This document shows, one piece after another, positions 3,421-35,241 of a stretch of DNA of 35,241 nt. The DNA lies in the NCBI GenBank assembly GCA_017624715.1, contig JAGAMN010000047.1:1-35241 (forward strand), written 5' to 3'. The notes under the pieces were generated by a model. The model worked only from the letters and a program-made list of their open reading frames with translations. It was not told the DNA's origin and did no database searches. Origin of the DNA: Oscillospiraceae bacterium. Lineage in GTDB: Bacteria > Bacillota > Clostridia > Oscillospirales > Oscillospiraceae. Every line of letters starts with the position of its first letter. Position 1 is the stretch's first letter. A program made the translations under genes and the position numbers.

Positions 3421-5397
3421 ATGAACAAGAAGCTGGGAAGACTGTTTTGGCCCGGACTTTGGGTCTACTTTATTTTCATGGCCGGATTTGTGGTGGCCGC
3501 TGCATTGTTCCAGCAGTATGTATTAGCTGCTGTTGAAGGCGCAGTAATGCTTTTGGTCATTGCTTTTTACATCTACTGTCGGGCCAAGCGGCATCGCACC
3601 ATTCAGCACTTTGTAAAGTCCGCCTTCAATTCCTACGAATCCGTCAGCGGTACGGACACCCCCTTCCCCATGGCGCTCATCCGCCTGGGCGACAACAGTC
3701 TGATTTGGGCAAACGATCGGTTCAGCCAGATCACCGGCTATCAGCCCCGGTATCTGGAGCAGCCGCTACACCGCATTCTGCCTAACCTGACTACCGATTG
3801 GCTGGCTTCCGGCAAGCATGAGTATCCCTACGATATGACCATTGGAGGCCGTCGTTACCGCATTTACGGCACCACTACCCGGGCAGACGATCCGGAGCAG
3901 ACGGTGCTGGCTATGCTGTACTTCAGCGACCTGACGGAGCTGTACCAGGTTCGTGACGAGTATATCCGTTCCCGCCCCGTGGTTTCCATCATCCTCATCG
4001 ATAATTATGAGGAACTGATCAAGAACCTCTCCGAAAGCGCTATTTCCAACATGAACGCCAAGATCAATGATGTGATCACCAAGTGGTGTGAGCCCTGCCA
4101 CGGTCTGCTGCGTAAGATGGAGCGCAATCGCTTCCTGTTTGTATTCGAAAAGAAGGACTTACAGCGTGCGATCGAGGATAAATTCTCCTTGCTGGAGGAT
4201 ATTCACGAAGTCACCAGCCCCTCCGGCCTTGCCGCATCCATTTCCATGGGTATCGGTGTAGACGGCAGCAATTTCGACGAAAGCTACAACTTCGCAGCTC
4301 TGTCCATCGAAATGGCCTTAAGCCGCGGTGGTGACCAGGCCGTTATCAAGGATCGGTTTAACTTCACCTTCTACGGCGGCATTGCCAAGGAAGCCGACCA
4401 CAGAAGCAAGGTTCGTTCCCGTGTTACCGCCAACTCCCTCATGGAACTCATTGGCCATAGCAGTCAGGTGTTCATCATGGGTCACAAAAATGCGGACATG
4501 GATGCCGTAGGCGCTGCCATGGGCATCAGCTGTATGTGCCGCAAAAAGGGCAAGCAGCCTTATATCGTCCTGGATCTGGAAAACAATTCTGCCGAGCGAC
4601 TGATCGAAGAGATCCGCCAGGTGCCGGAATACCGGGATGTGTTCATCTCCGGTCAGGAAGCCTTGCTTTTGGCCGACAACCACAGTACCCTGGTCGTGGT
4701 CGACACCAACCGTCCCGACCAAGTGGAGAGCAAACCCCTTCTGGAGGCCATTTCCAAGGTCTGTGTGGTGGATCATCACCGCAGAGCTGCGGATTATATT
4801 AACCCCGTGGTGGTTAACCTCCACGAACCTTATGCTTCCTCCGCCGCAGAACTGGTTACGGAGCTGCTGCAGTATTCTGTGGAAAAGACTGACGTTCTGC
4901 CCATCGAAGCCAAGAGTCTGCTGGCAGGCCTGTTTCTGGACACCAAGAGCTTTAACGTCCGTACCGGCGAGCGTACCTTTGAGGCTGCCGCCGTTCTGCG
5001 TCAGTGGGGTGCTGAGACTGTGGAGGTCAAGCGGCTGATGCAGTCCGATTTCCAGGACACCATGGCCAAGTACCAGATCATCAAGGCCGCCCGGCTGTAC
5101 CGTCAGGACATTGCCATCGCTGCCCTGAACAGCTCCACTTCCCGTACTCTGGCAGCCCAGGCTGCGGACGAACTGCTGAACATTTCCGGCATTTCCGCTT
5201 CCTTCGTGCTGTATCCCGATGAGGATCAGGTATTTGTTTCCGCCCGTTCCATCGGTCAAACCAATGTACAAATGATTCTGGAGCCCCTGGGTGGCGGCGG
5301 CAATACCGCCACAGCCGGTGCACAGATCCGCAACACCACCGTCAAGGATGTGCTGGATAAGCTGGTGGCATCCATTGACCAATTCTTTGAAGAATAA
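3421..5397 (+). CDS. gdpP: Cyclic-di-AMP phosphodiesterase GdpP (DHH family)
   Basis: Hydrolyses c-di-AMP to pApA and so influences wall and potassium homeostasis (family knowledge). The 658-residue membrane protein has two N-terminal membrane segments (about 10-30 and 36-53), a PAS-like domain (about 80-170), a degenerate GGDEF domain (about 185-315; no GGDEF signature) and a C-terminal DHH/DHHA1 module. Catalytic motifs are GHKNADMDA (D359, D361), VVVDTN (D428), DHH at 451-453, FLDTKSF (D508) and the GGGGN loop near 624-628. This domain order is diagnostic for GdpP/YybT. The ribosome binding site AAGGAGG lies just upstream of the ATG. It is the first gene of the operon and is followed 12 bases later by rplI, the usual Bacillota arrangement. 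Confidence 0.96.
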   Translation: MNKKLGRLFWPGLWVYFIFMAGFVVAAALFQQYVLAAVEGAVMLLVIAFYIYCRAKRHRTIQHFVKSAFNSYESVSGTDTPFPMALIRLGDNSLIWANDRFSQITGYQPRYLEQPLHRILPNLTTDWLASGKHEYPYDMTIGGRRYRIYGTTTRADDPEQTVLAMLYFSDLTELYQVRDEYIRSRPVVSIILIDNYEELIKNLSESAISNMNAKINDVITKWCEPCHGLLRKMERNRFLFVFEKKDLQRAIEDKFSLLEDIHEVTSPSGLAASISMGIGVDGSNFDESYNFAALSIEMALSRGGDQAVIKDRFNFTFYGGIAKEADHRSKVRSRVTANSLMELIGHSSQVFIMGHKNADMDAVGAAMGISCMCRKKGKQPYIVLDLENNSAERLIEEIRQVPEYRDVFISGQEALLLADNHSTLVVVDTNRPDQVESKPLLEAISKVCVVDHHRRAADYINPVVVNLHEPYASSAAELVTELLQYSVEKTDVLPIEAKSLLAGLFLDTKSFNVRTGERTFEAAAVLRQWGAETVEVKRLMQSDFQDTMAKYQIIKAARLYRQDIAIAALNSSTSRTLAAQAADELLNISGISASFVLYPDEDQVFVSARSIGQTNVQMILEPLGGGGNTATAGAQIRNTTVKDVLDKLVASIDQFFEE

Positions 5398-5890: not shown

Positions 5891-7231
5891 ATGGATGAAG
5901 AACTGCTGAATGGGCAACCGCCCCATTCTTTGGAGGCAGAACAGTCTGTTTTGGGATCTATTTTGATTGACAGCCAGTGCGTGGCGGATGTGATCGGCAT
6001 TGTCCGTGCGGATGATTTTTATCTGCAGCAGAACCGGGAGATCTATCAGACGATCTACACCATGTTTAATTACTCCCAAGTTATCGACCCGGTCACCGTG
6101 CTGGATAAGATGAAGGAACTGGGCTTCTATACCGACAAATCCCGGGATTACATTCTCCAGCTGATGGAGATTACTCCCACCGCGGCCAATGTGGTGCGCT
6201 ATGCCAATATTGTCCGGGAAAAATCCATGCTACGGGGTCTGAAGAAAGCCGGCACCGAGATCGTCGAATTGGTATCTTCCGAAACCGGCTCCCCTGCTGA
6301 GATGCTGGAACTGGCAGAAAAGAAGATCTATGCTCTGCGTAAAGGCGAGCGGGAAGACTCCCTGGAGCATATCGGCACGGTTCTGCACAAGGTCTTCGAC
6401 CGGCTGACCGAACTGAGCCAGTCCGACTCCGCAATACCCGGTCTTTCCTCCGGTCTGCGGGACTTAGACCACAAGATCAACGGCTTGAACAAGTCCGACC
6501 TGTTGCTGGTTGCCGCCCGTCCTGCCATGGGCAAATCCGCATTTGCCCTGAACCTGGCTGTGAATGTAGCCAAAAAATACAAAAAGACCGTGGCGATTTT
6601 CAACCTGGAAATGTCCCGAGAGCAGCTGGCAATGCGACTGCTTGCCAGTGAGAGCTTTATCGAACTGCAAAAGCTGGCCACCGGTAAACTCAGCGAGGAA
6701 GAGTGGAGCAAACTGTGCATGGCCTCCGCTGCCCTGAGCCAGGTGGACATCCGCATTGACGACAATCCCTCCGTTACCGTCGCTGACATCAACGCCAAGT
6801 GCCGCCGTTTGGGCGACGACTTGGGTCTTGTGGTCATCGACTACCTACAGCTGATGCAGGGCTCCGGTTACGGCAAAAACAGCGAAAACCGTGTCACTGT
6901 GGTCAGCGATATTTCCCGTAGCTTGAAGATCATGGCCAAGGAACTGAATGTTCCTGTTGTCTGCCTGAGCCAGCTTTCCCGTGCTGTGGAAAGCCGTACC
7001 GACAAGCGGCCCATTCTGTCCGACCTCCGGGAATCCGGTGCCATCGAACAGGACGCCGACTCCGTTATGTTCCTGTACCGGGATGAGTACTACAACGAAA
7101 ATTCCGAAGAAAAAGGCATTGCCGAATGCATCGTAGCCAAGAACCGTCACGGTGAGACCGGCCCGGTAAAGCTGCAATGGTTCGGCCAGTACCAAACCTT
7201 TACTGACCGGGAGTGGAAGCATGCTGAATGA
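5891..7231 (+). CDS. dnaB: Replicative DNA helicase (DnaB type)
   Basis: Hexameric 5'-3' replication-fork helicase (named DnaC in Bacillus). The 446-residue protein has the N-terminal helical primase-interaction domain (about 10-110), a linker and a RecA-like motor. Walker A is ARPAMGKS at 209-216 and Walker B is LVVIDYLQL at 313-321. Near 370 is SDLRESGAIEQDAD, and the C-terminal AKNRHGETG carries the arginine finger. No intein or insertion is present. The ribosome binding site GAGAGGAG lies about 7 bases before the ATG. Its stop codon lies within tilS, an 11-base overlap that suggests translational coupling. Confidence 0.97.
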   Translation: MDEELLNGQPPHSLEAEQSVLGSILIDSQCVADVIGIVRADDFYLQQNREIYQTIYTMFNYSQVIDPVTVLDKMKELGFYTDKSRDYILQLMEITPTAANVVRYANIVREKSMLRGLKKAGTEIVELVSSETGSPAEMLELAEKKIYALRKGEREDSLEHIGTVLHKVFDRLTELSQSDSAIPGLSSGLRDLDHKINGLNKSDLLLVAARPAMGKSAFALNLAVNVAKKYKKTVAIFNLEMSREQLAMRLLASESFIELQKLATGKLSEEEWSKLCMASAALSQVDIRIDDNPSVTVADINAKCRRLGDDLGLVVIDYLQLMQGSGYGKNSENRVTVVSDISRSLKIMAKELNVPVVCLSQLSRAVESRTDKRPILSDLRESGAIEQDADSVMFLYRDEYYNENSEEKGIAECIVAKNRHGETGPVKLQWFGQYQTFTDREWKHAE

Positions 7232-13121: not shown

Positions 13122-13222
13122 TGCAACAGCGGGTGCGGTGACCCCATCGCGGAATACGATCCTTCGTCCTCCGGGCAACTCCCCGTCCCGGTGGCACTTC
13201 ACGCGAGGTCTCCTACTCTGTT
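13122..13222 (-). promoter_or_regulatory. THF (folT-motif) riboswitch
   Basis: The minus strand matches the tetrahydrofolate aptamer consensus in order: AGUAGG, CGCGU-GAAGUG, GGGACGGG, ACGAAGG, CGCG and finally CGCACCCGCU. Closing helix P1 is AACAG / CUGUU. The P2 region pairs GACC-CGCG with CGCG-GGUC. It lies directly after a promoter and upstream of a terminator and the folate-type transporter, which is the classical context. High THF is expected to reduce folT expression. Confidence 0.88.
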
Positions 13223-30302: not shown

Positions 30303-30950
30303 TCAGACCTTAAATTTGTTAAAGTAATCGTACAGCGGTATCAGCTGATCAAAAAATCCGCTGACTCTGCTTGCCAGCTCCGGTGTAAAGGTATTCGGTC
30401 CAAAATCCTCATGACGGATACAGCCGATGGCCTTTTTCCAGGCGAAGAACCGCTCTAAGCGGGAATCGTCGGTTTTTTCCGGGCGCTTATAATTCTCCGC
30501 TGTGATGGTCATGCCCGTGTCCTTTTCCACTTTTTCAATCATTTTCAAAAAGGGTTCCGGTCTTGCGGCAATATCCCGATGGAATTCCTTCAGTACCGCC
30601 ACCCGGGGCTGCCAGATAAAGAAACCGTAATCCACGCCCTCAGGATTGATCTCAAAAAACAGGCAGGGATTCTCTGCCCACCACTCCACATCCTGCCGGA
30701 TACAGATCCAAAGGCTCTCCTTGTAAGGCAGCGGATGGTGCATCCGGGCATCCCGGTAAATGCGGCTGACCTTCAGCAGCTCACCGGGCTTGTCCACAAA
30801 GGGCTGAAACAGCGCCGCACCCAAAGCCTTCATGGGCTCATACAGCTCTTTGACATATTGCTTTTTGTTCTGCATAAACCATTCCCGGTTGTTATTCAGC
30901 CGGATTCCCCACAGAAAATCTACCGTTTCCGGGGTGAAGCCCTGGAACAT
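30303..30950 (-). CDS. DUF2461 family protein
   Basis: A 215-residue protein with the family's N-terminal pattern FTPETVDFLWGIRLNNNREWF, a central KVSRIYRDARMHHPLPYKESLW and the C-terminal RHEDFGPNTFTPEL. The biochemical function of DUF2461 is not known to me. It is probably cytosolic, with no signal or membrane segment. It is the promoter-proximal gene of the dap operon, but this linkage may only be positional. Upstream GGCGGTG serves as a weak ribosome binding site. Confidence 0.85.
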   Translation of the reverse strand: MFQGFTPETVDFLWGIRLNNNREWFMQNKKQYVKELYEPMKALGAALFQPFVDKPGELLKVSRIYRDARMHHPLPYKESLWICIRQDVEWWAENPCLFFEINPEGVDYGFFIWQPRVAVLKEFHRDIAARPEPFLKMIEKVEKDTGMTITAENYKRPEKTDDSRLERFFAWKKAIGCIRHEDFGPNTFTPELASRVSGFFDQLIPLYDYFNKFKV

Positions 30951-30989
30951 ATTGTCACCGCCCTTTCGTGCACATTTCGATACACTTAT

Positions 30990-31018
30990 ATCATAACCAA
31001 TTTTCCGTCATTTTGCAA
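30990..31018 (-). promoter_or_regulatory. Promoter of the DUF2461-dapABF operon
   Basis: On the minus strand TTGCAA, a 17-base spacer and TATGAT, 40 bases upstream of the ATG. No lysine riboswitch is present; the leader is too short. Confidence 0.78.
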
Positions 31019-31086
31019 CTAAAATCTATACTCCTGCCGGGCTGGCGTATTTCTGTAAAAATATCTGTTTTTTGTCAAAAAAGAGG

Positions 31087-31123
31087 TTGACATTTTCGAA
31101 AAAGAGTGGTACACTCTCTTTCG
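31087..31123 (+). promoter_or_regulatory. Second promoter with a palindrome over its -10
   Basis: TTGACA (31087), a 17-base spacer and TACACT (31110). The inverted repeat CGAAA-A-AGAGTG / CACTCT-C-TTTCG (31097-31123, one mismatch, GTA centre) covers the spacer and -10. It could be a repressor operator or a 5' hairpin. No gene starts within the next 90 bases; CCGG...CCGG with an inner GCAGA/TCTGC stem then TTTTTATT (about 31161-31197) might end a short RNA. Confidence 0.5.
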
Positions 31124-31209
31124 GTACGGATTTATCGAATTAATTTTGTGCAACTTCCGGTGCAGAAGAAGAATGTCTGCCCAATCCCGGTTTTTATTAC
31201 CGTTTATTC

Positions 31210-31238
31210 TTGACAAAAAGTAGGAGTTGCGTTACAAT
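31210..31238 (+). promoter_or_regulatory. Promoter of the ZTP-riboswitch operon
   Basis: TTGACA, a 17-base spacer and TACAAT. Transcription would begin around 31245, exactly at the start of the aptamer. Confidence 0.85.
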
Positions 31239-31245
31239 AAGAAAG

Positions 31246-31316
31246 GCATCACACGACTGACGGTTACGCGGAGCACTGCGGGGGAATGTGATGTTATAGT
31301 AGCCGACCGTCTGGGC
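31246..31316 (+). promoter_or_regulatory. ZTP riboswitch (pfl motif)
   Basis: Helix P1 is CAUCACA / UGUGAUG (7 bp). Inside are CGACUGACGG, a CGC/GCG stem and GGGGGA. The conserved 3' domain AGCCGACCGUCUGGGC follows after a short linker. GACGG and CCGUC form the pseudoknot. These are the conserved parts of the ZTP aptamer, and the downstream fhs-fchA-folD genes are its classical targets. ZTP binding, a sign of 10-formyl-THF shortage, should switch the operon on. Confidence 0.9.
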
Positions 31317-31348
31317 AATTCGATTCCGCAGAATCGGGTTGCTTTTTT
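31315..31348 (+). terminator. Riboswitch expression-platform terminator
   Basis: Stem GCAATTCGATTC / GAATCGGGTTGC (12 pairs, two GU), loop CGCA, then TTTTTT. Its first bases are the last bases of the aptamer's CUGGGC, so ligand-bound aptamer and terminator compete, as is usual for ZTP switches. Confidence 0.87.
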
Positions 31349-31373
31349 CATTTTTACCCCAAGGAGCACTGCT

Positions 31374-32318
31374 ATGAGCTTTACATACAAGGGCCTGCAG
31401 GCCCAAATGAGCCGCCACATCATCACCGACGAGGAAATCGACCGCCAGATTGAAAAACTGCGGGAGTCTAATCCCCGGATCGCCCTGGTCAACGACCGTC
31501 CCACGGAAGTGGGAGACGAAGTCGTCCTGGACTATGCCGGTTTCTGCGATGGCGAACAGTTTGTAGGCGGCACTGCCGAGAACCAGACCCTGGTGCTGGG
31601 TAGCGGTATGTTCATCCCCGGTTTTGAAGAGCAGCTGGTGGACAAGGTCCCCGGTGAAAAGGTTATCGTTAAGGTCACCTTCCCCACCGAATACCACGCG
31701 GAAAACCTGGCTGGTAAGGAAGCTGAGTTCCACTGCACCATTCATCAGATCCGTGTGAAGACCGCTTATGACTTAGACGACACCTTCGCTCAGGAGGTCG
31801 GTGGCTGCTACACCTTTGAGGAAATGCGCACCGAGCTAGGCAAGAGCCTCCAGGCTTATGTGGACGAACGGGGCGAGATGGATCTGCAGGATCAGCTCCT
31901 GCGTCAGGCCGCTTCCACACTTGACTTCACCATTACCGAGGAAGCTCTGGAAGCAGCTGTCACCGAGCAGATCCATAATCTGGAAGCACAGCTGGCTCGC
32001 CAGGGTCTGACCCTGGATATGTACTGCAGCTTTACGAAATCTACTGTAGAAGACCTGCGCAAGGATGCCTCCTCTGCCGCCGAAGTCGCCCTGCGGACTC
32101 AGGCAACTGTGGATAAGATCGTGGAGCTGGAAAATCTCACCGCATCCGAGCAGGAGATCGGTGAAGCCCTGGCTGTGATTGCAAAGCAGAACAACATGAC
32201 TGTTGAGCAGATCAAGCCCTACTATGATGCCGAATTTGAACAGGCAATCATCAAAAGTGTACTCACCAGCAAGGTCATGCACCTGATTCGGGATGCAGCT
32301 GATATTGCAGTGGTATAA
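31374..32318 (+). CDS. Trigger-factor-like chaperone lacking the ribosome-binding domain
   Basis: A 314-residue protein that matches trigger factor from just before its peptidyl-prolyl isomerase domain to the C terminus. The FKBP-like domain is at about 46-126, with GDEVVLDYAGF, GSGMFIPGFEEQL and VTFPTEYHAENLAGKEAEF. The helical chaperone arms occupy about 127-314. The normal N-terminal domain of about 110 residues with the GFRxGxxP ribosome-docking loop is absent. This is not a mis-called start: AAGGAG sits 8 bases before the ATG, and the riboswitch terminator lies immediately upstream. It is the first gene of the ZTP-controlled folate operon; its client may be an operon product (inference). 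Confidence 0.87.
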   Translation: MSFTYKGLQAQMSRHIITDEEIDRQIEKLRESNPRIALVNDRPTEVGDEVVLDYAGFCDGEQFVGGTAENQTLVLGSGMFIPGFEEQLVDKVPGEKVIVKVTFPTEYHAENLAGKEAEFHCTIHQIRVKTAYDLDDTFAQEVGGCYTFEEMRTELGKSLQAYVDERGEMDLQDQLLRQAASTLDFTITEEALEAAVTEQIHNLEAQLARQGLTLDMYCSFTKSTVEDLRKDASSAAEVALRTQATVDKIVELENLTASEQEIGEALAVIAKQNNMTVEQIKPYYDAEFEQAIIKSVLTSKVMHLIRDAADIAVV

Positions 32319-32337
32319 CATAAACACATTAATCATT

Positions 32338-32354
32338 GTGCCGCACCGCGGCAC
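32338..32354 (+). other. Intercistronic hairpin before fhs
   Basis: A perfect 7-bp stem GTGCCGC-ACC-GCGGCAC without a T tract, 11 bases before the fhs ribosome binding site. It may protect or separate the highly expressed fhs message. Confidence 0.45.
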
Positions 32355-32377
32355 CTAAAACAAGGAGGAAACTTACT

Positions 32378-34189
32378 ATGGCAATCGTTTTTGACGAAAA
32401 TGGCAAGTACGTGGACGAAAAGGGCTTCACTAAGCTGGATCCCACCAAGTTCGCTGACTGGCAGATCGCCGAAGAGGCCGAAAAGTCCCTGCCCTCCGTG
32501 GAATTCTTCCGCGAGAAGCTGGGCCTGCTGCCCGAGGAGATCATCCCCTACGGCAAGACCCCCAAGATCGACTTTATCAAAGTTATGAACCGTCTGAAGG
32601 ACAAGCCCGACGGCAAGTTCATCGAAGTCACCGCTGTTACCCCCACCCCCTTCGGTGAAGGTAAGTCCACCGTTTCTCTGGGTCTGATCGAAGGCCTGGG
32701 CTACATCGGCAAGAATGCCGGCGGCGCTCTGCGTCAGCCCTCCGGCGGCCCCACCATGAACGTTAAGGGTACCGCAGCTGGCGGCGGCAACGCTCTGCTG
32801 ATGCCCATGACCGAGTTCTCCCTGGGCCTGACCGGCGATATCAACGATATCATGAACGCTCACAACCTGGCTATGGTCGCTCTGACTGCCCGTATGCAGC
32901 ACGAGCGCAACAACACCGATGAGTGGCTGGCTAAGAAGGGCCTGAAGCGTCTGGACATCGACCCCAAGCGTGTGGAGATGGGCTGGATCATCGACTTCTG
33001 CGCACAGAGCCTGCGTAACATCATCATCGGCATCGGCGGCCGTCTGGACGGCTTCATGATGGAGAGCAAGTTCGGCATCGCTGTCGGTTCCGAGCTGATG
33101 GCTATCCTGGCTGTTGCTAAGGACCTGAAGGACCTGCGCGAGCGTATCGGCAAGATCGTTGTGGCTTACTCCCGCACCGGCGAGCCCGTTACCTGTGAGG
33201 ATCTGGATGTTGCCGGCGCTATGACCGCTTGGATGCGTAACGCTATCAACCCCACCATGTGCTACTCTGTCGAGCATCAGCCCGTGCTGATCCACGCCGG
33301 TCCCTTCGCTAACATTGCTATCGGCCAGTCCTCTGTTATCGCTGACCGCCTGGCTCTGAAGCTGTTCGATTACCACGTCACCGAGTCCGGCTTCGCTGCC
33401 GACATCGGCTTCGAGAAGTTCTGGAACGTTAAGACCCGTCTTAGCGGCCTGACTCCCAACGTTTCCGTTCTGGTTGCTACCGTTCGCTCCCTGAAGATGC
33501 ACGGCGGCGGCCCCAAGGTCACTCCCGGCGCACCCCTGCCCAAGGAGTACAAGGAAGAAAACCTGGAGCTGCTGGAGAAGGGTACTTGCAACCTGTTCCA
33601 CCATGTCAACACCATCAAGAAGTCCGGCATCAACCCCGTTGTCTGCATCAACCGCTTCTACACTGATACCGACGCTGAGATCGCCCTGCTGAAGAAGATG
33701 TGTGCTGAGCGCGGTGTCCGTTGTGCCGAGTCCAACCACTGGCGTTACGGCGGCGAAGGCGCTGCTGAGCTGGCCCGCGTGGTCGTTGAGGCTTGTGAGG
33801 ATCCCGTGGAAGTCAAGTTCCTGTACGATCTGGAGATGCCCCTGCGTCAGCGCGTTGAGCTGATCGCTAAGGAAGTCTACGGTGCTGACGGCGTTATCTG
33901 GCAGCCCCTGGCTGTGGAGAAGGCTCAGCGCTTCGAGTCCGATCCCAAGTACGCTGACTACTGCACCATGATGGTTAAGACCCACCTGTCCCTGTCCGAC
34001 GATCCCACCAAGAAGGGCGTGCCCACCGGTTGGAAGCTGACCGTCCGCGACATTCTGGAGTACGGCGGCGCTAAGTTCCTGTGCCCCATGGCCGGCACCA
34101 TCTCCATGATGCCCGGTACCGCTGCTGACCCCGCATACCGCCGCGTTGATGTGGACACCGAGACCGGTAAGGTTTCCGGCCTGTTCTAA
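32378..34189 (+). CDS. fhs: Formate-tetrahydrofolate ligase, MTHFD1-like type
   Basis: ATP-dependent synthesis of 10-formyl-THF from formate and THF. The 603-residue protein is longer than the usual bacterial 555-560, with about 35 extra N-terminal residues. The P-loop is [10 protein letters not shown] at 89-98. Several motifs follow the eukaryotic MTHFD1 ligase domain as I remember it rather than the Moorella/Clostridium form: LRQPSGGP (not LREPSLGP), [27 protein letters not shown] and [17 protein letters not shown]. Codons are highly biased (GCT, CGT, GTT, CTG), indicating strong expression. The ATG follows AAGGAGG. It is the second gene of the ZTP-controlled operon. Confidence 0.94.
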
Positions 34190-34352: not shown

Positions 34353-34973
34353 ATGGATATGACATTAGCATCCTGCCGTGAGTTTGTCACGGTTCTGGCA
34401 TCCGATGCTCCCGCCCCCGGCGGCGGTGGCGCTGCTGCTCTGGTTGGCGCTATCGGCACCGCTCTGGGTAACATGGTGGGCTCTCTGACCGTCGGTAAGA
34501 AGAAGTACGCCGAGGTTGAGGCTGAGATCATTGCCCTGAAGGCCAAGTGCGACGCACTGCAGACGGAGCTGCTGAACCAGGTGGAAGCCGACGAAGTCAA
34601 CTTCCTGCCCCTGGCCAAGGCCTACGGCATCCCCAAGGACGACCCCAACCGGGATCAGATCATGGAGGAAGCAACCATCATCGCCTGCTCCACCCCCATG
34701 CACATCATGGAGCTGTGCTGCGAGGCTATTGAGTACATCAGCGTATTTGCCGCCAAGGGCAGCCGCCTGGCTGTTTCCGATGCCGGCTGCGGCGCTGTTT
34801 GCTGCAAGGCCGCTCTGCAGGCCGCTTCTCTGAACGTGTTTATCAACACCAAGAGCCTGAAGAACCGGGAAGTCGCTGAGGAAATGAACGCCAAGGCCAA
34901 CGGCATGCTGAATAAGTACTGCGCCATGGCCGACGAGATCTTCAACACCGTTAAGGCCGGTTTCGGTCAGTAA
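34353..34973 (+). CDS. fchA: Cyclodeaminase/cyclohydrolase family protein (FchA-like)
   Basis: A 206-residue helical protein of the formimino-THF cyclodeaminase/methenyl-THF cyclohydrolase family. The signature is APAPGGGGAAAL at 20-31. A VGKKKYAEVE segment and EADEVNFLPLAKAYG follow, then an alanine-rich helical C terminus typical of the family. In this operon it most likely interconverts 5,10-methenyl-THF and 10-formyl-THF or releases ammonia from formimino-THF; the sequence alone cannot separate these. The ribosome binding site AGGAG is present. It lies between two repeat elements but is clearly part of the folate cluster. Confidence 0.88.
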   Translation: MDMTLASCREFVTVLASDAPAPGGGGAAALVGAIGTALGNMVGSLTVGKKKYAEVEAEIIALKAKCDALQTELLNQVEADEVNFLPLAKAYGIPKDDPNRDQIMEEATIIACSTPMHIMELCCEAIEYISVFAAKGSRLAVSDAGCGAVCCKAALQAASLNVFINTKSLKNREVAEEMNAKANGMLNKYCAMADEIFNTVKAGFGQ

Positions 34974-35107: not shown

Positions 35108-35241
35108 ATGGCCAAGAAATTGCTGGGTAAGGAAGTCAACGAGGCTCTGGTTGCCTCTCTGCAGACCCGTACCGCTGCCCTGCGGGAGAAGGGCGTTGTC
35201 CCCACTCTGGGCATCATCCGTCTGGGCGAGAATCCTTCCGA
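35108..35241 (+). CDS. folD: Methylene-THF dehydrogenase/methenyl-THF cyclohydrolase FolD, N-terminal part
   Basis: The first 44 residues are visible; the gene runs off the right edge. The sequence AKKLLGKEVNEAL and the conserved GVVPTLGIIRLGENPS match the FolD N terminus (catalytic domain strand 1). FolD interconverts methylene-, methenyl- and 10-formyl-THF, completing the one-carbon set with fhs. The ATG at 35108 has TGGAGGA 7 bases upstream. Confidence 0.92.
   Translation, partial: MAKKLLGKEVNEALVASLQTRTAALREKGVVPTLGIIRLGENPS

Follow-up and report, generated by a model that had tools for sequence, protein, structure and literature searches.

A trigger factor without the ribosome-binding domain accompanies a divergent formate-tetrahydrofolate ligase in Oscillospiraceae

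The window, a 35,241-nucleotide stretch of DNA from an Oscillospiraceae bacterium, carries, just upstream of fhs-D, a gene for a trigger factor (sTF) whose N-terminal ribosome-binding domain is missing; fhs-D is the gene for a divergent formate-tetrahydrofolate ligase (FTHFS) that we call FHS-D. In the genus of the window, 19 of the 21 genomes with sTF were found to have FHS-D, and sTF was absent from all 14 genomes having the canonical FTHFS. Trigger factor is usually viewed as a general ribosome-bound chaperone. Judged from gene content and gene order, sTF most likely acts as a foldase after the ribosome and is coupled either to FHS-D or to one-carbon enzymes. Our best explanation, to which we would give somewhat less than an even chance, is that sTF is a ribosome-independent trigger factor with FHS-D as its main client, that the two genes form a cassette, and that in the window the cassette is under ZTP control.

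The sTF ORF encodes 314 aa and runs on the + strand from an ATG at 31374 to the stop at 32318. The gene had been described, from its letters alone, as beginning at the isomerase domain and lacking the ribosome-docking domain, and profile searches agreed with that description. The protein scored 248.4 bits against the trigger factor model TIGR00115 (cut-off 180.2), matching model positions 110–409 only, and it contained both an FKBP_C isomerase domain (53.5 bits, cut-off 21.1; residues 44–119) and the C-terminal substrate-binding arms, Trigger_C (89.2 bits, cut-off 22.7; residues 147–305). The Pfam Trigger_N match was 11.3 bits, below the cut-off of 22.2, and involved only the last 26 model positions; the GFRxGxxP ribosome-docking motif was absent from sTF. 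Residues Y54, F63, I81, F84, Y107 and F119 were invariant in 20 aligned orthologues and align with F168, F177, I195, F198, Y221 and F233 of E. coli trigger factor, which we take to be the isomerase pocket. An AlphaFold model of sTF had a mean pLDDT of 89.9 and a pTM of 0.63, so that the domain arrangement is less sure, and its best PDB matches were trigger factors.

The start of the gene, which the original prediction had set by the ribosome-binding site, was upheld: AAGGAG is read at 31361–31366 (+), and both the start position and an upstream purine-rich stretch were constant across the 21 genus sTF copies compared, the G024 copy being cut at a contig end. Intact orthologues, 57–70% identical and without internal stops, were present in 20 of the 36 further genus genomes; hence the gene is not a sequencing artefact. 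In a tree built from 33 short factors and 15 full-length ones, the sTFs stood apart as one group with support of 100/97, and because the short factors lie on one side of the branch, sTF is an old separate lineage and did not arise lately by breakage of the tig in its own genome. The window genome does have a second, full-length tig, as was to be checked; there is one (G000:C5), with a Trigger_N match of 140.7 bits and the ribosome-docking motif GFRKGKAP, and sTF is 31% identical to it over the shared part. On a codon index built from fhs, sTF scored 0.43, the full tig 0.70, fchA 0.61, rpoB 0.58, and four other window genes 0.23–0.34. This suggests that sTF expression is moderate, below that of full tig, rpoB and fchA, a level more in keeping with a catalytic helper than with a stoichiometric subunit. 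Elsewhere in the order, distant trigger-factor-like genes (G053:C5, G043:C14, G043:C19, G047:C8 and G039:C18), with 25–30% identity and frames of 372–381 aa, represent a different kind of extra copy.

Downstream of sTF, a small hairpin, GTGCCGC-ACC-GCGGCAC, without a T run, occupies 32338–32354 (+), and small hairpins of like kind occur in intergenic regions of some relatives. Next comes fhs-D (32378–34189, +), whose 603-aa product matched PF01268 with 720 bits and NF010032 with 1048 bits (cut-off 938). It is followed by a gene for an fchA-like cyclodeaminase/cyclohydrolase at 34353–34973 (+), with 200 bits against PF04961 and 172.9 bits, below the cut-off of 275, against NF045657, and by the start of a folD-like gene at 35109–35241 (+), an open ORF cut by the end of the window. 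The latter falls in the same homologue cluster as a complete copy at L039:8589–9536, in which the two Pfam domains typical of folD enzymes were both found. The FTHFSs of the genus are of two types, FHS-D of 603 aa with a PF01268 score of about 720 bits when complete, and the canonical enzyme of about 557 aa with about 920 bits. The N-terminus of FHS-D is about 20 residues longer than that of solved FTHFSs, residue 27 aligning with residue 7 of 4ioj. The idea that this extension is a tag for sTF was weakened to a lead only. In one FTHFS set the extension was present in 26 of 27 sTF rows, the 27th, RUG14340, having a different one, and in 3 of 17 rows without sTF; the rows without the extension form one clade, and in the family sample many FHS-D matches starting at query position 1–8 come from genomes without sTF. 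In eight genomes (G027, G030, G033, G021, G032, G026, G014 and G028) a contig ends within fhs-D; strong conservation of the gene among related strains may have made assembly fail at this point.

The genus sample consisted of 37 genomes (G000–G036). sTF was found in 21, and FHS-D was identified in 19 of those, 18 by search and one, G016, by eye from the start region right after sTF. Of the other two, G024 has an unassigned FTHFS fragment and G004 gave no FTHFS match. Among the 16 genomes without sTF, 14 have canonical FTHFS, 11 of them checked by sequence and three (G003, G005 and G020) assigned from the profile score alone; G025 yielded a tiny fragment and G008 nothing. Regular adjacency to fhs had been proposed as a check, and it was found: fhs-D is the next homologue after sTF in 17 of the 19 genus copies with a long enough contig (the sTFs of G004 and G024, at contig ends, were left out), with gaps of 32–624 bases where measured. 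In the remaining two genomes, G001 and G011, sTF and fhs-D lie at separate places. In G001 a deoxycytidylate-deaminase-like gene is found 3' of sTF; in L058 and L061 (from G022 and G035), canonical fhs comes after grpE, dnaK, dnaJ and a deoxycytidylate-deaminase-like gene, as assigned by Pfam on the L058 copies.

Beyond the genus, a family sample of 400 genomes from 106 genera was searched for sTF at E ≤ 1e-60. Eighteen genomes in eight genera were positive, and 16 of these had FHS-D, that of G120 coming from a separate search and that of G414 being a fragment. In 12 of the 16 genomes with both genes, fhs-D lies 3' of sTF on the same strand. As for the other two sTF genomes, G131 has a distant orthologue (40%) beside URO-D and CobW-like genes, together with a canonical FTHFS, and in G242, which is 70% complete, there was no FHS-D match at E ≤ 1e-145. 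FHS-D itself was found in 71 family genomes, 68 at E ≤ 1e-145 plus G120, G414 and G447 from fragments. At least 55 of the 71 lack sTF, a lower bound given that fragments were taken into account only for G120, G414 and G447, and the notion that every FHS-D requires sTF was therefore rejected. A Fisher test of 16/71 versus 2/329 gave p = 2e-11 (5e-10 on earlier numbers), which serves as a guide only since the genomes are related. Among the 80 loci listed from a contig scan, 8 had short factors and 72 had none classed as short; two of the eight, L073 and L075, were taken to be the G001 and G131 copies. The suggestion in the original prediction that sTF might be a dedicated chaperone for Fhs thus stands as a possibility and fails as a general rule, given that sTF goes with one FTHFS isoform in the genus and that most family genomes with FHS-D do without it.

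Comparison of gene trees and gene sites indicated that sTF and fhs-D are exchanged together. On a tree of full-length trigger factors with 28 genus rows, half of them (14) from genomes with sTF, eight changes of the sTF label are required (7–9 in bootstraps), of which at least three are forced by well-supported branches. The corresponding figures for an RpoB tree, in which 26 rows are labelled, G007 is only 35% filled and many forks are weak, were seven changes (6–8), at least four of them forced. In both trees label C means that no sTF was found, and in the full-length-factor tree C includes G025, the genome with the tiny FTHFS fragment. Label shuffles gave as few changes in 91–92 of 500 cases for the full-length-factor tree and in 186–199 of 500 for RpoB; shuffled labels often being as good, the sTF states are close to random on both trees. 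G010, with sTF and FHS-D, and G034, with canonical FTHFS and no sTF, are sisters on both trees. At a site marked by a DUF2461 neighbor, G012 has ZTP–sTF–fhs-D where G006 has canonical fhs, and at a second shared site G013 has sTF–fhs-D where G029, G009 and G036 have canonical fhs; at both, fchA and a folD-like gene come next where the stretch reaches. Replacement at two shared sites means that sTF and fhs-D move as a cassette. The same seems to hold between genera. In genus g120 (G439 and G414) the sTFs are 68–69% identical to that of the window and have a ZTP aptamer 5' of sTF, and the FHS-Ds are 95% (G439) and 88% (G414, a 115-residue fragment) identical to that of the window, as expected if whole cassettes had crossed genera.

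Cassette movement has the consequence that linkage accounts for part of the co-distribution, and the two genes, being usually adjacent, may be exchanged jointly from linkage alone. A functional tie is better supported by the genomes in which sTF and FHS-D both occur and lie apart, namely G001, G011, G400 and G150; that only these four were seen counts against FHS-D as the client. The sTF of G001 falls among the copies from its own genus, while the FHS-D of G001 pairs with that of G088 from another genus, which suggests that sTF stayed through an exchange of fhs.

The leader of sTF in the window contains a ZTP/ZMP (pfl) riboswitch aptamer (RF01750) at 31243–31323 (+), which scored 57.5 bits where 39 is the gathering score. 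The original prediction of an aptamer with an overlapping terminator agrees with what was found: 31313–31344 (+) forms an intrinsic-terminator-like hairpin that has 14 pairs, a T-rich tail and 11 bases in common with the aptamer's 3' end, so that the putative expression platform, by which termination is predicted, overlaps the end of the aptamer at 31323. The minimum-energy fold of 31243–31352 includes this hairpin, and the whole fold of that leader had a slight advantage over shuffles (z -1.71; 12 of 200 equally good). A hairpin scan of 30900–32450 gave four sites versus 1.6 expected from shuffles, weak evidence by itself; the site at 31313–31344 has 14 pairs and the other three have five each. 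A probable promoter, TTGACA-17-TACAAT, agreeing with 11 of 12 consensus positions, precedes the aptamer at 31210–31238 (+); the promoter scan, with four sites versus 1.3 expected from shuffles, gave also an upstream promoter-like site at 31087–31115 (+). The firm part of the leader is the aptamer match, rather than the hairpin, promoter or fold results. By eye, an inverted repeat, TTCGGTACGGATTTATCGAA, was seen at 31120–31139 (+), 3' of the upstream promoter-like site and upstream of the ZTP promoter, where it might be an operator, and repeats with the pattern (T)ACCGATAA-n-TTATCGAT or TTCGGTA-n-TACCGAA were seen near the promoters of several fhs-D and canonical fhs genes. The version in the window would then be a possible shared operator. 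Other riboswitches were encountered as well: a THF riboswitch (RF01831, 87.3 bits) at 13125–13222 (-) of the window, and on another contig of the window genome, L067, a second ZTP aptamer at 5202–5281 (-) and a glycine riboswitch at 6918–7006 (+); about 4 kb from them the contig ends in part of a second fchA-like frame (92% identical).

Regulation is not uniform among sTF loci. A ZTP aptamer was found 5' of sTF in 13 of 40 scanned loci, that is, in 7 of 21 in the genus, in 3 of 9 additional loci (L068–L072, L074, L075, L148 and L149) and in 3 of another 10. A regular pfl neighbor, the other half of the proposed check, was accordingly not borne out, and the ZTP switch was dropped as a constant partner: what stays constant beside sTF is fhs rather than the riboswitch. 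G102 has a ZTP aptamer directly 5' of fhs-D and no sTF between them. In G014, G016, G017, G032, G033 and SIG474, a divergent gene of one homologue cluster faces sTF; one copy (G017; L044) is LysR-type by Pfam, and this context suggests regulation other than by ZTP. Between sTF and the divergent gene (L033, L037, L041, L044, L048 and L069), a CTATAGATA-AAACTATA-like stretch was seen by eye to recur.

The fhs genes have RNA leaders of their own. Canonical fhs is led by the FTHFS RNA, RF02981, in 10 of 11 scanned loci from the genus (L062 is without it); RF02981 was found neither in the window at the gathering score nor in 20 genus sTF loci at E ≤ 1. A two-hairpin RNA leader precedes fhs-D in some genomes, whether or not they have sTF, and ends just 5' of the ribosome-binding site; it was seen at L150:4912–4991 (+), L149:4959–5040 (-), L148:4920–4999 (+) and L052:5038–5117 (+), and also at L040, L043, L046, L034 and L167. 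There was no Rfam match in the eight fhs-D leader loci searched, to E = 5 for L040, L043, L148, L149 and L150 and to E = 0.1 for L250, L252 and L253. A covariance model built from five sequences and run on 62 sources gave ten matches, of which nine, including the five training sequences, stand before fhs-D; the tenth, at E 0.17, was taken as chance. In the family sample the model matched 17 of 400 genomes in six genera, the five training genomes included, and all ten loci inspected (four being training sequences) lay directly before fhs-D. In an alignment of 14 distinct leader sequences, pairing is kept in 96.4% of cells, and both sides have changed in 8 of 18 pairs; shuffles averaged 3.2 and none of 500 was as high, but the number of further pair types was reached by 53 of 500. 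The alignment had been fitted to the structure, which favors the latter. The fhs-D leader is a candidate for a new cis-regulatory RNA or riboswitch for FTHFS.

The metabolic setting of these genomes was examined through acsB. An acsB-type match (acetyl-CoA synthase, PF03598, above the cut-off) was found in 34 of the 37 genus genomes, 22 of them with two, some partial; of 23 genomes from elsewhere in the order, one had such a match. The genus thus looks like an uncultured gut lineage with Wood-Ljungdahl genes, acetogen-like in character. sTF was rejected as a mark of Wood-Ljungdahl genomes, since 13 of the 14 canonical-FTHFS genus genomes have an acsB-type match and no sTF. In G090 and G154, sTF ends an acsB–RACo–DUF3786 run and is followed by fhs-D, which points to other clients.

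Under our best explanation, sTF would be a cytosolic proline isomerase with substrate-binding arms and without ribosome attachment, and it would fold or help assemble clients once they are off the ribosome, the main one presumably being the neighboring FTHFS isoform FHS-D, which it would accompany as a cassette moving between genomes. For the window, build-up of ZMP/ZTP, a sign of 10-formyl-folate shortage, would lead to sTF and FHS-D being made together; by analogy with the published class, ligand bound to the aptamer would prevent the terminator from forming and turn expression ON. A cytosolic post-translational foldase follows from the domain content, the behavior of published factors lacking the N-domain, and the linkage. 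The direct observations behind this explanation are the domain content, the linkage and the co-distribution, together with the switch in the sequence and the structure model. Against it stand the FHS-D genomes without sTF (at least 55 of 71), the G131 copy, in a genome with canonical FTHFS, the acsB run of G090 and G154, and the moderate expression suggested by codon use. A narrower version is rather unlikely in our estimate: sTF would be a private, FHS-D-specific foldase, perhaps acting via the N-terminal extension, in a cassette inherited and swapped between acetogens. Purine-alarmone control, present in some lineages, would then raise the enzyme together with its chaperone at formyl-folate shortage.

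Among the rival explanations, we consider it possible, with a probability well short of even, that sTF works more broadly, as a ribosome-free foldase of several one-carbon or Wood-Ljungdahl enzymes, FTHFS being only one client and a neighbor by convenience. Its clients might then, with the same reserve, be CODH/ACS, corrinoid methyltransferases and folate enzymes. The acsB–RACo–DUF3786–sTF run, the position of the G131 copy beside URO-D and cobW genes, and the prevalence of acsB-type matches in the genus all agree with such a role, but the canonical-FTHFS genomes with acsB and without sTF do not, nor does G150, which has sTF and FHS-D and no acsB match at 95% completeness. We think it less probable still that sTF is a general trigger factor paralogue, relieved of dosage limits by loss of the N-domain and carried as a passenger in a mobile fhs cassette. 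Such paralogues with varied roles have been published (PMC11559001), most FHS-D genomes are without sTF, and upstream regulation varies among ZTP, a LysR-type neighbor and the acsB run; against a mere passenger speak the four genomes with sTF apart from fhs that still have FHS-D, the genus sample, in which no sTF was seen with canonical FTHFS, and the conservation of sTF at 57–70% identity with an intact isomerase pocket. That sTF is a truncated tig pseudogene, a frameshift or an assembly error is very improbable and was rejected: the ORF is short compared with a full tig, but it is intact in many genomes, has a conserved start and its own group in the tree (100/97, 33 versus 15 rows), and coexists with a separate full tig.

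If the best explanation is true, sTF would be a rare client-specific trigger factor, free of the ribosome, that follows one metabolic enzyme through repeated exchange; the function of the chaperone arms without the ribosome would become testable, a folding factor would join the ZTP regulon, and the finding would bear on FTHFS production in uncultured gut bacteria with Wood-Ljungdahl genes.

Extra trigger factors as such have precedent. According to the main text of Wan et al. (2024; PMC11559001), 390 of 15,241 genomes bearing trigger factor have several copies, the ribosome-binding motif is on only one copy in 367 of the 390, and Clostridia make up 209 of the 238 multi-copy Firmicutes genomes. 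The shortened Myxococcus factors described there did not bind ribosomes or prevent aggregation and kept the ability to aid refolding; the failure to prevent aggregation counts against our best explanation for sTF. Folate, riboswitches and operons are not mentioned in the main text of that paper, and in the open-access literature we found no link of trigger factor to ZTP riboswitches or to FTHFS as a partner. The kind of protein is thus already known, and what is new is only the fhs/ZTP context.

In sum, sTF can be set against four known systems. Like the full-length factors of TIGR00115, it scores above that model's cut-off, has the FKBP isomerase domain and C-terminal arms, and finds trigger factors as its PDB matches; unlike them, it begins at model position 110, without the ribosome-binding N-domain or GFRxGxxP. 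Like the N-deficient homologues of Wan et al. (PMC11559001), it is an extra copy that has lost the N-domain and stands beside one complete tig, but the main text on those homologues gives no folate, riboswitch or operon context. The FTHFS RNA RF02981 is likewise a leader RNA 5' of fhs within the same genus, whereas fhs-D comes with ZTP–sTF, with a context of some other sort, or with the two-hairpin RNA leader, which is unlisted. Finally, ZTP riboswitch targets listed in the literature include fhs and folD (PMC2864571), and the window resembles this pfl regulon in having an RF01750 aptamer and an overlapping terminator-like hairpin 5' of a formyl-folate operon, yet differs from it in that the first gene of the operon encodes a chaperone-like protein.
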